A DNA stretch of 22,882 nucleotides from a virus. Positions 699 to 22,599 of this stretch are shown piece by piece. The position numbers and the translations under genes are program-made. Under the pieces are notes generated by a model. The model worked only from the letters and a program-made list of their open reading frames with translations. It was not told the origin of the DNA and searched no databases. Each line of letters opens with the position of its first letter. Within the stretch, counting starts at the first letter, position 1. The stretch is from IMG/VR virus record IMGVR_UViG_3300020172_002077, positions 1 to 22,882 of that record. One strand, written 5' to 3'.

Positions 699-1988
699 AT
701 GGCAAAGACAAGTTTTGCTACTAACGATGCCTTAACAAAAAAGGCATGGGAAGAGAAGCTCTTTCGCGACAGCGTGAAAGAGTCGTACTTCAGTAAGTTC
801 GTTGGCTCAGGCGCTGACACGATTGTAACGGAGAAGACACAGCTTTCGAAGGACAAGGGTATTTAGTTGCCCCTCGCTTATGAAGCGAGAAAATTGGGGA
901 AAATCGGTGAACCCTGAGATGGGAATACCGAGGTAAGCGAGGGAAGTAACGAGCCCCTGCCACCGTAGAGCGTAGGAGATGAAACTCGGTAACGAGAATA
1001 TAAGCTCCCAAGAGTCCCCGACACCGAAAGGTGAAAATGTACGCCGAGCTTACTGGAATAGAACGGTAAGAAGCAGAGGATAAAAAGCCTTTGCGATAAC
1101 AGACTGGACGAGATCACCATCGGCCTTCGCATGAAGCTCGCTGGCGCTGGCGTTACTGAGGGTCAGATACTTGAGGGCAACGAGGAGAAGCTTTCAACCT
1201 ACAGCATGAAGGTAACACTCAAGCAGTATCGTCACGCGGTTCGTGATGATGGTGCAATGAGCCGTAAGCGAGCAATGTTCGACATCGGCGCTGAGTCCGA
1301 GGCTGCGTTGAAGGATTGGACGTCTGAGAAGATTGACCAGCTTCACTTTGATGAGGCTGGTGTTGGCGCGGGAGCTTCGGCTAATCCGTCCAAGATATTC
1401 TACAAGACATCTTCAGGTGTATTGGCAACGGGAACTGCGGCAACAGCTAAGTCGGCTCTTACAACGGCTGATGGAAAGCTTACGCTTAACATGCTCTCGT
1501 TCCTCAAGACCTGGGCTTTGACTGGTGGAAATCGTTCGTACATTCCGCTTCGTCCAGTAAAGGTTGAGGGTAAGCCTTACTTCGTGCTCCTGACTCACCC
1601 AGATGCCGTGTATGACCTTCGAGCTAGCTCGGAGTTCCAACAGGCTATGCGTGAGGCTGAATTGCGGGGTCCACAAAACCCTTTATTTTCCGGGGCAGTT
1701 GCAATCTGGGACGGTGTCGTAGTTCACGCGCATGAAAACTGCGCTATCGCTACTGACTCTGGAGCTGGATCGAACGTTCCGTGGGTTAAGTCTGCACTTC
1801 CTGGAGCGCAAGCCTTATGCGTTGCATACGGTAAGCGTCCTGAGGTCGTTCAGAAGACCTTCGACTACGACAATGAGGAAGGATACGCGACGGGCGTAAT
1901 CATGGGCGTGAAGAAGTCTATCTTCAACTCGCTCGATTACGGTTCGCTTGGTGTTTACCTCGCTCGTACTAACGTGGCTGGAAGCTAA
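699..1988 (+). CDS. Major capsid protein, N4-gp56 family; join(699..860,1107..1988), split by a group I intron
   Basis: Exon 1 (699-860, 54 codons) starts with ATG preceded by an AGGA ribosome site and ends ...TEKTQLSKDKG. Exon 2 (1107-1988) continues DEITIGLRMKLAGAGV and runs to TAA. Joined, they give 347 residues, a normal length for this family, and restore the typical N-terminal block: a basic Lys-Gly-Asp-x-Ile-Thr turn, then G-L-R-M-K-L-x-G-x-G-V, then LEGNEE and a Tyr-Arg-His-Ala-Val-Arg motif. The family forms the icosahedral shell (HK97 fold). Reading exon 2 from the ATG at 1131 alone would lose about 62 N-terminal residues that include conserved sequence, so that short reading is not the real product. 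Family assignment is from recognised motifs; the splice is inferred from RNA structure and frame restoration. Confidence 0.88.
861..1106 (+). ncRNA. Group I self-splicing intron in the capsid gene
   Basis: The 246-base insert has the order of helices of a group I intron. P1: exon GGGU (857-860) with GCCC (869-872), giving U860.G869 at the 5' splice site. P2: 873-879/883-889, 7 bp. P3: 894-900/1015-1021. P4: 904-908/927-931. P5: 912-914/921-923, with A-rich J4/5. P6: 932-934/962-964 plus an inner stem. Extra hairpin 985-988/993-996 with GUAA loop. P7: 1002-1007/1046-1051. P8: 1022-1025/1030-1033 with GAAA loop. P9: 1052-1055/1064-1067. P9.1: 1073-1079/1088-1094. The last intron base is G1106. 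P10 can form between 866-868 and exon bases 1107-1109. There is no homing endonuclease gene. An in-frame TAG lies at intron bases 4-6. The subgroup and exact P7 pairing are uncertain. Confidence 0.85.

Positions 1989-6754: not shown

Positions 6755-6755
<1 letters not shown>
6360..6755 (+). CDS. Short collagen-like virion protein
   Basis: A 131-residue protein. Residues 1-30 are basic and charged. Residues 32-64 are eleven uninterrupted Gly-X-Y triplets, mainly GPT, GAQ and GPQ, which should form a collagen triple helix. The rest is a Thr/Val/Gly-rich strand region with [14 protein letters not shown], common in phage fibre proteins after collagen repeats. Start and stop overlap both neighbours (ATGA before, TAATG after). 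It probably forms a trimeric fibre or a spacer attached to the neck or tail. The exact role is unknown. Confidence 0.65.
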
Positions 6756-7501
<746 letters not shown>

Positions 7502-8961: not shown

Positions 8962-9737
8962 TGGCTAATAATTTTACGTCGGTCGGTCCTAACCTTAACG
9001 CCGCATACGCAGCGCAGACTACGTTTGGTACGTTTAACCGGCAAATATGGACCCGTATAAACGCAGCAACTTCAACGCTTGGCGCCGCTACTCAGGGACA
9101 GTGCGTAGCACAACGCTATCCGATTAGACCTGTCATTCCAGCAGTAGGGGCAGGGTGCGACGGGTTTATCGCTACTAACATAAGTTGTCTTAATGAAGAT
9201 GGGGTTACCGCTCACATTATCGGACTAGAGTATTTGCTAGGCACAATTACCGCTCCCAACACGTTCACCGACGGCGTAGTGATGCCAATTAAAAAAGTGC
9301 GTGGAACGTCAGTGCAAACAGCGGCGAGCATTATTTTTGCCGTAACGGATGCAACTATTTCAGGCGGTCCGACCGTCAACGTGACCTATACAGATCAAAA
9401 CGGAAACACTGGCAATACCTTTAATTTTGTATGTCCGACCACGGCATTGGCAAATACAGCCTTAATGATTAATAACCGCATGACGACCGATACGGGAATT
9501 AGAGATATCACCGCAATGTCGGTGACAGGATTAACAGCGGGGAATATAAAAGTATACGGCATACTACCGCTCTATCTTAGCGTTAATCAAAATACGGAGT
9601 ATCGAGTGCCATTGTTAGCAGCTCCGCTTGTTCCCTATCTTTTGCAAGCGGGAGAGTTTCTCGGAGCGTACCGATTATTTAGCAGCACAACCAACGAAGT
9701 ATTTATCTCGATGAACTTAACGCCGGAGCCGACTTAA
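8961..9737 (+). CDS. Virion surface protein of unknown family, paralogue B (258 aa)
   Basis: The start is the ATG at 8961, which overlaps the stop of paralogue A (TAATG). An upstream in-frame extension from 8856 lies within gene A and is not favoured. The protein begins MANNFTSVGPNLNAAYAA and has the shared central layout: Leu-Gly-Thr-Ile-Thr with Phe-Thr-Asp-Gly-Val-Val-Met-Pro, Thr-Tyr-Thr-Asp-Gln-Asn-Gly-Asn, then Thr-Gly-Ile-Arg-Asp-Ile and Tyr-Gly-Ile-Leu-Pro-Leu. The N-terminus differs from A and C, while the middle and C-terminal parts keep the pattern. It is probably beta-rich and virion-associated. No enzymatic motif is visible. Confidence 0.6.
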   Translation: MANNFTSVGPNLNAAYAAQTTFGTFNRQIWTRINAATSTLGAATQGQCVAQRYPIRPVIPAVGAGCDGFIATNISCLNEDGVTAHIIGLEYLLGTITAPNTFTDGVVMPIKKVRGTSVQTAASIIFAVTDATISGGPTVNVTYTDQNGNTGNTFNFVCPTTALANTALMINNRMTTDTGIRDITAMSVTGLTAGNIKVYGILPLYLSVNQNTEYRVPLLAAPLVPYLLQAGEFLGAYRLFSSTTNEVFISMNLTPEPT

Positions 9738-9738
9738 C

Positions 9739-10584
9739 ATGGTAGCAACGAGCGCAGATATTTTAATACAACAAGCCAGCGGAAAGTACGTCGTTCGCAC
9801 GGCCTCGACTATATTAACTACAGTTAGTACAGCCGCTAGTGCGACAAGTGGTTTTCTCAACTTGCAGTTTAGTGGAACTACTGGCTCAGCGTTTCCCAAT
9901 ACTATTACCTCCTGCGAAGGTCCAGCCAGTGTACCAAGCGATTTGATGTTTCTTAATTTGATTAGCTCTACTACAGCAGGACGGCATAGTGGGATAGGAC
10001 GTATATACAAATTGGGAACTTGTAATTTCACAGCTCTCGGCGAAGCGTTTACCCATGGCGCAGCGACTTTTCCGCTACTCAGAAATGAGATGGGAGCGAC
10101 AAACGTACCGCAAAGTTTTATTCCAATAATGCAAGTAACTACCAGCACCGGAGGTACGGCGGCTCAATTCCAAATTAGAAACGCAGGATCTACGGCGGGA
10201 TACGTAAACTCGCAAGGAACTACCGTTGTCGGTAACAAAACATTCACGTTTCCATCGGCCTCAACTCAAGTAAACTCGACGTTTTATTTACCGCTCAACG
10301 ACGGCGATTACTCTTGCCGTGACATTACAAACATTACTTGTACCACAATTAGCACTAATGCTTTCGCTACGATCTGGTTACTGGAAGATCTTGGAATAGG
10401 TGCTTCTATCGGTGGTGCGGGTATCACAGAACATTTGTACGGCTCAGGATTAAGACTTACACAGTGCGCCGCAGCGACAGCAACGACAGGAACAGCAACG
10501 AGTGCTCTTGTACCTTTTAACATTGGTAATACAGCGGCGCTTGCCTCTCCTATGTATTTTCTTAGTCTAGGTATAGTACCGTGA
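9739..10584 (+). CDS. Virion surface protein of unknown family, paralogue C (281 aa)
   Basis: The start follows the stop of paralogue B by one base. It shares with A the opening Met-Val-Ala-x-Ser and Ala-Ser-Gly-Lys-Tyr-Val-Val, the Leu-Gly-Thr-Cys-Asn-Phe block with Phe-Thr-His-Gly, and Asp-Gly-Asp-Tyr-Ser-Cys-Arg-Asp-Ile before a strand pair near the end. It is longer than A and B by about 24 residues, mostly in a Thr/Ser/Gly-rich central insertion. The C-terminus (SPMYFLSLGIVP) is hydrophobic but too short for a membrane anchor. Its stop TGA overlaps the GTG start of the next gene (GTGA). Function unknown. Confidence 0.58.
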   Translation: MVATSADILIQQASGKYVVRTASTILTTVSTAASATSGFLNLQFSGTTGSAFPNTITSCEGPASVPSDLMFLNLISSTTAGRHSGIGRIYKLGTCNFTALGEAFTHGAATFPLLRNEMGATNVPQSFIPIMQVTTSTGGTAAQFQIRNAGSTAGYVNSQGTTVVGNKTFTFPSASTQVNSTFYLPLNDGDYSCRDITNITCTTISTNAFATIWLLEDLGIGASIGGAGITEHLYGSGLRLTQCAAATATTGTATSALVPFNIGNTAALASPMYFLSLGIVP

Positions 10585-15380: not shown

Positions 15381-18300
15381 ATGGCACGTTGGTTAAGGGA
15401 TGCAGATACGGGCGAGTTGTTCCGAGAGGATGAGCTTGACCCGAGTTCGTATGAGCCGTTGACTGACTTCCAGGGTATCGCTCCGAGCGAGCCTCAGACT
15501 CAATTTCCATCTTGGTTCACGTCAGGTATAGGCACGAGCGTTCCAGCTCGCTCTCTTGCGTCTATTGCCAAGGGCGGGGCTTCTATTGAGCAGATGCTAG
15601 GTGACTTAGCATCAAACATCCCTGGGCTAGAGAACAATGCGCTACAGCGAGATGCCCTACTCAATCGCCAGATGGCTGAAGACCTGGTTAATCAGGCAAG
15701 GCGGGATAATAATGTTGAGCCAGGAAGCTGGCAGGATATTGGCGGCGCGGTAGCGGGAGAGCTTATCCCATCGCTAGGAACACTGGGCTATGGACTGGCA
15801 AGAGGGGCTGGCAAAGCAGCACTTTCCATGGCTCCCGCACTACTTCCTTCAGCCACTAAGTACGGCGACCTAACAGAGCAAGGAGTAGGAGGCGGCGAGG
15901 CAGGGCTAGCAGCTCTTGGCTCCCTTGGCATGAACAGCCTTCTTAATAGGTTCGATGTTGGCGCAGCTCTTAATCCCGCGAGTTCAGCGCTTGGACGTAT
16001 TGGCAAAACAGCTCTTACTGGTGGGGCTACTAACGCTGCGGGAACATACGGCGATGCCTTGATTGATAAGGCAGTTGGCGCTCCTCAGACTCGCGACCAG
16101 TTCATAAACAACCTTCTCTCTTCTGCCGCTACTGGCGCAGCTACGGGCGCTGGGTTTGGTGCAATGTCTTCATTAAAGCCGTCACTGGATGTTCAGGCAC
16201 CCGAGGGGCAGAGCACCGCAGATCTGCTTGCGAGAATGGAGCAGGGCACCCCCCAAGCTGTGAGCGAGCCTCTACCTCCAAAGTCCTCCTTAGTATCTGA
16301 CGCTGATATTCCGCTGATAGAGGCAGCCCCTCCTGAGCCAAGACCGCTAGTGCAAGTTGAGGATGTTTACCGGGCCAGAGATTTAGCAGGTAGACAGCGA
16401 GAGATTGATGACCTCTTTTTCCCCGAAGATAGCGAGCTTTCATATCTACGCCAGAGTGACCCCACATCCACAAGTCAGGTAATCGACATCCAGAAGATGT
16501 CTCCATCTGGAGCAAAGATAATCGGCAACTTAGACGAAGGAACACCGATCACTCCGCTTGAGAGACAGGTAGCCGACCAAGTGTCTGCCAGGAGCAAGTC
16601 CAGAATTGCGGATGAGCGTATAAGCGAAAACGAAGCGGCTTTAAGGGAGCTGTTGGCTAAGCGCAGCGAGACTCGCAATTCAGGCTCGCGTTCCAGTCCA
16701 ACTCCCGACTCTGAACTATTGTTGAAAGTAGATGAGTCCAGCGAGTCCTTCCCGCAGCCGATAATTAAGAGTGTCTCTGAAGCCTCTACTAAACAGGCAT
16801 CGAACGTTATTTTGCCCCCAGGAGTTGAGACGTCCACTTCTCCACTTCCGCTATCACTCGTGCCTGACCGATTAAAACCAGCGCCTCCGCCCTCGCCTCA
16901 ACTTGAGCAAGTTGATGTTTATCAATCAAGAGGCCCAGCGGAGACCTTTCGATATGACCCTTTAAGCGAACAAGTGGCTAACCTTACGCGCGGCTCTAGC
17001 AGCGGACTTGCGGACGCAGAGCTTCCGATTATCGGACAAGAGCCACTTCAAAACCAAGCGCCTGAGCTTGTGACACCGGAGTCTTTAGGAAGCAAGCCTG
17101 GGGAGCTGTGGGTTGATCCCACCTCAGATATTGGGGCAAGACGTGAGGCGGCCAAGCGGCTCGTCAATGGGCAAAGAACAACCTCCCCAACAATTCTCTC
17201 AGCAGAAAACGTCAATCCCCCAAAAACAGACGGACCCAGCATCACTCCAGTAGAGGTCTACAATGCGCGAGTAACAGAAGACAAGGTTGCACAAGTTAAG
17301 CCCAAGGGCACTCAACCCAACGACCTCCCCAACGCACTTGGAAAGCGCGCCGCGACTCGGCGAAAGAAGCCGCTGAAGGCAGGCGAATCTGGCTATATAA
17401 AGCTAGATCAATATCCGATTGTCGGAGATGTCATAGACCTTGTTCGCTGGATGCGAGACAGGAAGGACAAGACTGGCGGTGGGGTTAATGGCTACCAAGA
17501 CTGGTCTCCAACTAACAAGCGATACGAGGAAGGTACTTGGGGTCGTCTCTGGGAGTGGATGGATACTACCAGAAGAAAAGAGCCCGCGTCGGCTGCGTTC
17601 ATTGACGGTCAGTGGAGAATCCCTCAAGACACTCATGCGATAGTTTGGGATGCGGATGAGACCCTAGCGCCTTACAAGAATCCAGACCTCACGGTTAAGG
17701 AGAGGCAGGGAGTAAATAACTACCTGCAAGCAGCTCGCGTATTAGGCTCTCGTGAGAAGGGGTACACTGTCTCGGCAGAAACAGCAGCTAAGGCAGGACT
17801 AAATCCTAAGCAGGTGGATGCGGCTCTCGCCGTAAAGCGTTGGTCTAACTTCTTTGCTGACATATTCGAGAACGACTCTCTGGCTCAGGCAGAGCACTAC
17901 GCCACCATGGAATCCATGAAGGCTCCAAACGACCAGTACCGAGCGGAGATAGCAACGAGATTAGAAGAGACGAAGGCGAAGATTGCAGAGACGTTCAAGG
18001 GGTGGAGAGATTCTAATTACGTTCCTTTCGACCGCTACGGCGAGCACTATATCAACGTACTCTCTCCCGATGGAAAGCTATTAGCTAGACAGCAGTTCGA
18101 GAGCAAGAATGACCCTGCGTTTAAGAAGGCGGTAGCCCACTACCAACAGCTTGCCACTCAGTCAGGAGAGTATGCAGGAGCTAAGGTCCAGTACGGGCGA
18201 CAGTCTCCTTCAAAGCTCTTGCAGTATGACGGCATTAGCAAAGACGTCTTAGACTTTCTGGGAGAAGACCCATCATCAGATCCAATCAACGGATTCTCTC

Positions 18301-21879: not shown

Positions 21880-22053
21880 ATGTTAGAGAGCAAGGGAACA
21901 AAGAGAACGCTTAGTGCTGTGTTTGCGATACTAGCTGTCGCCGCTGACTTCATACCTGTGGTAGCTCCGTTCAAGGAGATACTCATTCAGGTGGCTGGAG
22001 TCTTGGGCATAGCTGGAATCGGACATGCTGCCGTAGTTAAGTCTCGGAAGTAA
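21880..22053 (+). CDS. Holin-like two-helix membrane protein (57 aa)
   Basis: A short gene with GGAGAGG at 21871-21877, directly after the previous stop and right before the ATG at 21880. The N-terminus is charged (MLESKGTKR). Two hydrophobic segments follow, at about residues 11-30 and 33-53, joined by a short Pro/Phe/Lys/Glu turn; the end is basic (VKSRK). This is the layout of class II-type holins, which form inner-membrane holes that set lysis time and release the endolysin. It completes the cassette with the SLT enzyme. The last 17 bases overlap the convergent nuclease gene. Family is inferred from size, topology and place. Confidence 0.6.
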   Translation: MLESKGTKRTLSAVFAILAVAADFIPVVAPFKEILIQVAGVLGIAGIGHAAVVKSRK

Positions 22054-22360
22054 TCTTAGCCAAGCGGATAAAGTCTTCCAAGAATAGGGTCGCAAGCCAA
22101 GGCTTCGAGTTCTTCCTGTGAACAACCACAGACGTCTTGTCCTTGCCGTCCCTTACTGCTTGGCTGATAGCGTCGTGGATGTTGAGAGCCTGAACGCGCT
22201 TGCATTCGATATGGTAGCCGCTCAGCTCCTCACACACCACATCAGCATCCCCGTTAGCTCCGCTAAATTGTTGTCCACGACGGGCGGTTAGTCCTAGCTC
22301 CTTTAGTCGGTTGGCTAGTTCTCTTTCGCCTGCTGCTCCTTTGGCTCTTGAGTTAGTCAT
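22037..22360 (-). CDS. PD-(D/E)xK nuclease, Holliday-junction-resolvase-like (107 aa)
   Basis: The start at 22360 is fixed by an ATGA overlap with the upstream gene; a longer reading would add seven residues. The layout is that of small phage resolvase-like nucleases: an N-terminal helix with Gly-Ala-Ala-Gly-Glu-Arg-Glu-Leu (Glu12), then Gly-Asp-Ala-Asp-Val-Val (Asp38 and Asp40), then Ile-Glu-Cys-Lys-Arg (Glu52 and Lys54), giving E...D...ExK metal-binding residues. A basic part with Val-Val-Val-His-Arg-Lys-Asn follows. Such enzymes cut branched DNA in recombination and before packaging. Its 3' end overlaps the holin gene by 17 bases in convergent orientation. Confidence 0.7.
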   Translation of the reverse strand: MTNSRAKGAAGERELANRLKELGLTARRGQQFSGANGDADVVCEELSGYHIECKRVQALNIHDAISQAVRDGKDKTSVVVHRKNSKPWLATLFLEDFIRLAKITSET

Positions 22361-22599
22361 TCCTTCTCCCCCAATCCCCATCGCACAGCTATCTCGCCAA
22401 GGGTCGTTTCGTTTTCGTGTAGCCAGTCCATCATGTTGTCTAGCATCTCTCGCCTACCCATAAGCAGGAGCTTATAGCTCTCGCTTGCCGCTTCTTTTGC
22501 CGATTCAATTTTATGATCAACTGCCTGAGCTTGCTCATCAATCCACTCCCACAAGCTTTCAGCGTTGCAGTATTTGTGCGCGGTCCAGTGGCGGCTCAC
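22357..22599 (-). CDS. Small helical protein of unknown function (80 aa, GTG start)
   Basis: It starts with GTG at 22599, which overlaps the stop of the DUF551 gene (GTGA), with GGGGGAGAA close upstream; it ends overlapping the next gene by ATGA. This chain of overlaps shows one reverse-strand operon. The protein has many Trp, Glu and Ala residues: Ala-Glu-Ser-Leu-Trp-Glu-Trp-Ile-Asp-Glu-Gln-Ala near the start, then two charged helices and a short C-terminal Trp-Gly-Leu-Gly. There is no signal peptide, zinc site or clear DNA-binding helix. The family is not recognised; an early or middle gene accessory to DNA metabolism is possible. Confidence 0.6.
   Translation of the reverse strand: MSRHWTAHKYCNAESLWEWIDEQAQAVDHKIESAKEAASESYKLLLMGRREMLDNMMDWLHENETTLGEIAVRWGLGEKE

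Follow-up and report, generated by a model that had tools for sequence, protein, structure and literature searches.

Introns in phage major capsid genes have been described before. In mycobacteriophage LittleE, RT-PCR together with N-terminal sequencing established that a capsid intron is spliced (PMC3706429), and the capsid-gene intron of the lactococcal phage Tuc2009 is cited in that work as a precedent. The LittleE element is a probable group I intron within the major capsid gene and in this respect resembles the one analyzed here; it differs in its length of 819 bp, in occupying one site, in carrying an antisense ORF for a putative endonuclease, and in having only a tentative group I assignment (PMC3706429). 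IA2-type introns of Gram-positive phages (Staphylococcus Sextaecvirus, S. thermophilus terL, Twort) have the P3–P9.1 core with P7.1 and P7.2 in common with our intron, and the covariance model described below matches them. However, their hosts are genes for terminase, tape-measure, tail or helicase proteins, and several of them are accompanied by an endonuclease, whereas our intron is HEG-less and interrupts a PF13252 capsid gene.

Two further systems place related introns at several sites. Group I introns of fungal rDNA, for which spread by reverse splicing has been proposed (PMC1299323), are related to one another, HEG-less, located at several sites of one gene and matched to their targets by short guides, as are the capsid introns described below; there the hosts are multicopy eukaryotic rRNA genes, whereas here the host is a phage protein gene. 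IStrons (PMC4227781) likewise carry an IA2 intron core at many sites, but they contain IS605/IS607-type ORFs and have fixed target motifs and ends, none of which is found in the capsid introns. According to a review, transposition of group I introns by reverse splicing is without direct experimental evidence, the best circumstantial cases being rDNA introns (PMC3984707).

The stretch of DNA analyzed here, referred to as the window, comprises all 22,882 nucleotides of an IMG/VR virus record (IMGVR_UViG_3300020172_002077), and its start corresponds to the head-assembly region. The coordinates of all features are collected in Table 1.

Reading frame, splice sites and ribozyme core

The original prediction described a compact group I intron, folding from P1 to P9.1, in the major capsid gene, with a frame that breaks at 860/861 and resumes in phase at 1107. 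Our analysis agrees with this description. Joined exons give a stop-free translation of 347 amino acids that matches PF13252 Phage_capsid_3 (2e-46, residues 6–333 covered) and phrog_334 'major head protein' (1.6e-70). In seven IMG/VR relatives with 86–89% amino acid identity (L002–L007 and L009), KDKG-DEIT/DEVT is continuous and the insert is absent. Unspliced translation ends two codons into the insert (ATT TAG, 861–866), and the introns of two further relatives discussed below, L008 and L010, also have in-frame stops early. An intein was considered as well and rejected, because the TAG closes the host frame.

That the insert simply disrupts the gene, with the capsid protein translated from the ATG at 1131, where a 285-aa ORF begins, is extremely improbable: an AGGA motif precedes the ATG at 699 and no ribosome-binding motif precedes 1131, the PF13252 match extends over residues 6–333 of the joined product, the ribozyme core of the insert is intact, and exon 1 is still selected as protein (purifying selection), because its 54 codons differ from those of the relatives by 17–29 silent nucleotide changes and only 4–10 amino acid changes.

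The ends of the insert are those of a group I intron. The U.G pair at the 5' splice site and the end G had been noted previously, as had a possible P10; the P1 helix, G1106 and a P10 of 3 bp are indeed present. When the spliced window gene was scored, the true site alone among 249 U-preceded positions attained its P1 plus P10 pairing. The insert also folds far better than shuffled sequences (z −4.6).

For the core, a P3–P9.1 pairing set was derived from the window sequence alone and then counted on an alignment of 12 introns. Standard pairs occupy 98.4% of the alignment cells (78.2% in shuffles), and every core helix is 92–100% paired. Two-sided changes were seen in 35 of the 54 core pairs, the P3/P7 pseudoknot included, compared to a shuffle mean of 20.6 (0 of 500 shuffles as high) and 9–11 in slid controls; the covariation score was 0.58 (0.18 in the shuffles). 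The strands of P3 and P7 form the group I pseudoknot, with 5 of 7 pairs covarying in P3 and 1 of 5 in P7, where the remaining pairs are invariant. P7.1 and P7.2, located between P7 and P3' and both covarying, point to subgroup IA (IA2-like). Judged from its sequence, the insert is real and a group I intron, and we infer that it is spliced. In the proposed reaction, the guide sequence of the intron would pair with the last bases of capsid exon 1, guanosine would cut after U860, and exon 1 would then attack after G1106, leaving the capsid mRNA intact again, while the early in-frame stop would bar ribosomes from the intron core.

Table 1 Features of the window and family introns in major head protein genes of related records (strand and remarks as available).
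Feature	Record	Positions	Strand	Remarks
Capsid exon 1	window	699–860	+	54 codons; 3' end GGU at 5' splice site
Capsid exon 2	window	1107–1988	+	293 codons plus stop
HEG-less group I intron in capsid gene	window	861–1106	+	246 nt, omega-G last at 1106; site after codon 54; blastn, covariation, CM
P1: GGGU (857–860) with guide sequence GCCC (869–872)	window	857–872	+	U.G at splice site; pairing score, fold
In-frame TAG stop just within intron	window	864–866	+	reading-frame check
P10 strand GUU with 3' exon GAC (1107–1109)	window	866–868	+	3 bp; pairing score
P2 hairpin	window	873–889	+	fold
P3 5' strand, partner 1015–1021	window	894–900	+	5/7 pairs changed on both sides; 98.8% of cells paired
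P4 (904–908/927–931) and P5 (912–914/921–923)	window	904–931	+	J4/5 and J5/4 A-rich; P4 invariant, P5 covarying
P6/P6a	window	932–964	+	7/9 pairs covary
P7 5' strand GCGUA, partner 1040–1044	window	970–974	+	guanosine-binding helix; 4 pairs invariant, 1 covarying, 100% paired
P7.1 (975–978/1005–1008) and P7.2 (985–988/993–996)	window	975–1008	+	IA-type insertion; 3/4 and 3/4 pairs covary
P3 3' strand, partner 894–900	window	1015–1021	+	covariation
P8 hairpin	window	1022–1033	+	4/4 pairs covary
P7 3' strand UACGC, partner 970–974	window	1040–1044	+	covariation
P9 hairpin	window	1049–1070	+	4/6 pairs covary
P9.1 hairpin	window	1073–1094	+	best-conserved sequence block in this family; covariation, exact 21-mer
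Capsid-gene intron	L008	4766–5015		site after codon 317
Capsid-gene intron	L010	3272–3519		site inside codon 252 (phase 2)
Family intron in major-head-protein gene	L040 (also L047, L050, L046)	9592–9782		phrog_422
Family intron in major-head-protein gene	L044	7347–7459		phrog_14242

A phage intron family outside the reach of RF00028

A search with Rfam RF00028 had been suggested as a check of the group I assignment, but this model gave no match to the window insert, neither at its gathering threshold nor at E up to 10, and a family-specific model was required. RF00028 also misses most of the sibling introns that have the same covarying core; we therefore regard its failure as a limit of sensitivity. 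The model has been termed incomplete (PMC11878797). A covariance model (CM) built from eight other phage introns, with those of the capsid family left out, matched positions 889–1101 of the window with 189 bits (E = 8.7e-53). The same CM found the S. thermophilus terL intron, which RF00028 accepts at 51 bits, as well as three tandem places in Twort (16650–17537), which we take to be the gene with three group I introns known from literature cited in PMC11878797. Because the CM matches both the intron accepted by RF00028 and the Twort places, the family is assigned to group I.

By blastn, most of the insert aligns at 68–77% identity to inserts in Staphylococcus, Bacillus, Clostridioides, Oenococcus and other phages. 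One family member separates the two halves of a large terminase gene of S. thermophilus phage CHPC1042, and others adjoin an annotated endonuclease in Staphylococcus and Bacillus phages. The 21-mer AAGAAGCAGAGGATAAAAAGC of P9.1 occurs exactly in 35 viral contigs (L010 and L022–L055) and works well as a probe for this phage intron family, a whole covarying family that escapes scans with RF00028. Its members are also found in two further families of major head proteins (Table 1), and other 3' exons are tape-measure-like, terminase-like or of other types. The copies in L040 and L046 contain coding-like sequence upstream of P4', which is probably an endonuclease ORF. On the minus strand of L046, a phage contig, a near-threshold tRNA-Sec was observed at 1986–2070 (RF01852, 44 bits).

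The earlier view of an intron in a major capsid gene as unusual is thus only partly upheld: the location is unusual, but it is not new, given LittleE, Tuc2009 and the head-protein copies in L040/L047/L050/L046 and L044. This weakens the idea that phage introns are confined to genes of nucleotide and DNA metabolism, which PMC11878797 raises as a puzzle.

One intron lineage at three sites of the capsid gene

Two relatives with 83–86% capsid amino acid identity, L008 and L010, gave gapped capsid matches, and each has an intron at a different site of the gene (Table 1). The three-site claim concerns three contigs, and all capsid loci are metagenome assemblies. The three introns are 85–92% identical to one another and form one clade within the sampled family (bootstrap 94); the intron tree, with its three taxa, is not in conflict with the gene tree. 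Each copy has the U.G pair at the 5' splice site and a terminal omega-G, and each pairs with its 3' exon through a P10 of 3 bp, although the exon and P10 letters differ. P1 is formed by GGGU/GCCC in the window, GCGGU/GCCGC in L010 and CGGU/GCCG in L008, and P10 by GAC/GUU, AGC/GUU and AUG/CAU, respectively. As in the window gene, the site used in each of the two relatives is unique for P1 plus P10 (1 of 266 U-preceded positions in one gene, 1 of 260 in the other). Beyond 3–4 nt before the junction, the three target sequences are unrelated; even L008 and L010, whose guides are identical (GCCGCU), have only CGGT-A in common at their sites.

All three sites are empty in eight relatives, among them the nearest neighbours of the intron-bearing phages, L007 (of L008, 89.8% nucleotide identity) and L003 (of L010), and both occupied and empty alleles exist among relatives for each site. 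No further introns were found elsewhere in the same records. The intron cores are 93% identical, compared to 39–49% at four-fold sites of the host gene; in a pair sharing the same site, L040 and L046, the core is 87% identical at 56% for four-fold sites. These values would mildly favour movement after the phages diverged.

Three sites in one gene require at least two ectopic moves however gains and losses are arranged, provided that the three introns did not all arrive separately from outside, so this intron lineage would have changed its site at least twice within the capsid gene. Leaving aside the route of movement, we consider both the intron and its occurrence at ectopic sites nearly certain. 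For an intron that contains no homing endonuclease, the original prediction had offered two outcomes: mobility borrowed from an enzyme elsewhere, or mobility lost. Loss does not stand, because L008 and L010 hold the same intron at two other sites of the gene and the HEG-less lineage has hence moved ectopically. It is the occupation of three sites within one protein gene that a specialist would find surprising, since the case for ectopic transposition of group I introns has so far been built mostly on rDNA. With one small intron, three sites of one phage gene and an empty allele for each site, the question of transposition becomes testable in a fast genetic setting.

Another record, L011, agrees with L010 along 3268 bp (100% identity) and breaks off 3 bp short of the splice site in L010, at a base that varies among the relatives (GCG/GCA). 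This end could reflect a mixed population of intron-plus and intron-minus phages; it was not used as evidence, because the base difference could also break an assembly. L053 was tried as the missing half of L011 and rejected, as it represents an intron in a different gene.

Mobility proteins and the route of movement

As predicted for the window, none of the three capsid introns encodes a homing endonuclease: the antisense ORF at 878–1132 of the window has no Pfam match, and the capsid frame is closed by stops. Each capsid intron has a stop-free stretch of 81–83 codons in one of the six frames (antisense in the window), probably an effect of composition. No reverse transcriptase was detected in 11 records, most of them partial, no match to GIY-YIG or HNH_3 in ten or eleven records, many of them partial, and no TnpA (Y1_Tnp) in ten records. 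A classification as IStrons was rejected on the absence of Y1_Tnp in these ten records, on insertions that follow GGT and not TTGAT or a GG-ending target, and on 3' ends that read -TG instead of TCAG or CGG. Some 6 kb upstream from the capsid gene, the opposite strand carries a conserved HNH gene (L074 11331–11807 minus, with equivalents in other records), which is present in intron-bearing (the record of L008) and intron-less relatives alike. Elsewhere in the window, 6755–7498 encodes a tail protein with Mtd_N and collagen-like repeats, a diversity-generating reverse transcriptase not being found in related records, and 22037–22381 on the minus strand gives a weak match to the phage endonuclease PDDEXK_15, under the Pfam cut-off.

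We tentatively favour reverse splicing at the RNA level as the most likely route, ahead of endonuclease-driven movement and of reinvasion from outside. The excised intron would reverse-splice at matches of 4–6 nt, with the abundant late capsid mRNA as its usual target; the reverse-spliced RNA would then be copied into DNA, by a presumed source of reverse transcription, and recombine. Reverse splicing requires just a guide match of 4–6 nt (PMC3984707, PMC1299323), and the GCCGCU guide shared by L008 and L010 at CGGT-A sites fits such a mechanism. Guide–target fit alone is no proof of it, because selection leaves a functional P1 after any type of insertion. The broader proposition, in which natural transposition of a group I intron lacking an endonuclease proceeds by reverse splicing into abundant phage capsid mRNA, as one lineage at three sites with a guide fitting each, is put forward with slightly greater reserve, as a possibility.

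Site changes at the DNA level are rather unlikely. Here, a homing endonuclease (free-standing or intron-encoded; lost or acting in trans) would have cut the gene, and illegitimate repair would have copied the intron. Homing in trans is known for ORF-less introns (PMC3984707), and the nearest outside relatives, L040 and L046, lie in capsid genes and have the coding-like sequence upstream of P4' that is consistent with an endonuclease ORF; yet the three target sites share only the 3–4 nt before the junction, and no GIY-YIG or HNH_3 match was obtained. The HNH gene that several relatives have ~6 kb upstream of their capsid gene would be a candidate, but its presence in intron-less relatives argues against this role.

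Compared with reverse splicing within the gene, three independent gains, in which other phages would have supplied near-identical introns from an unsampled pool and the capsid gene was the target every time, are improbable. Such a pool would be consistent with an intron family that is widespread in phage structural genes and with an intron that has diverged less than its host gene. However, the capsid introns form one clade, and within IMG/VR the subfamily-specific pattern was confined to L008, L010 and the L040 group, with no match in 84,980 genomes.

Least credible among these routes, and quite improbable, is an ancestral capsid gene with three intron copies that were lost differentially by lineage: Twort does have three related introns in one gene (literature cited in PMC11878797), but many precise losses would be needed across ten related capsid genes, no capsid gene with two introns was seen among the related genes, and an ancestral multi-copy gene would itself need prior ectopic moves inside the gene.
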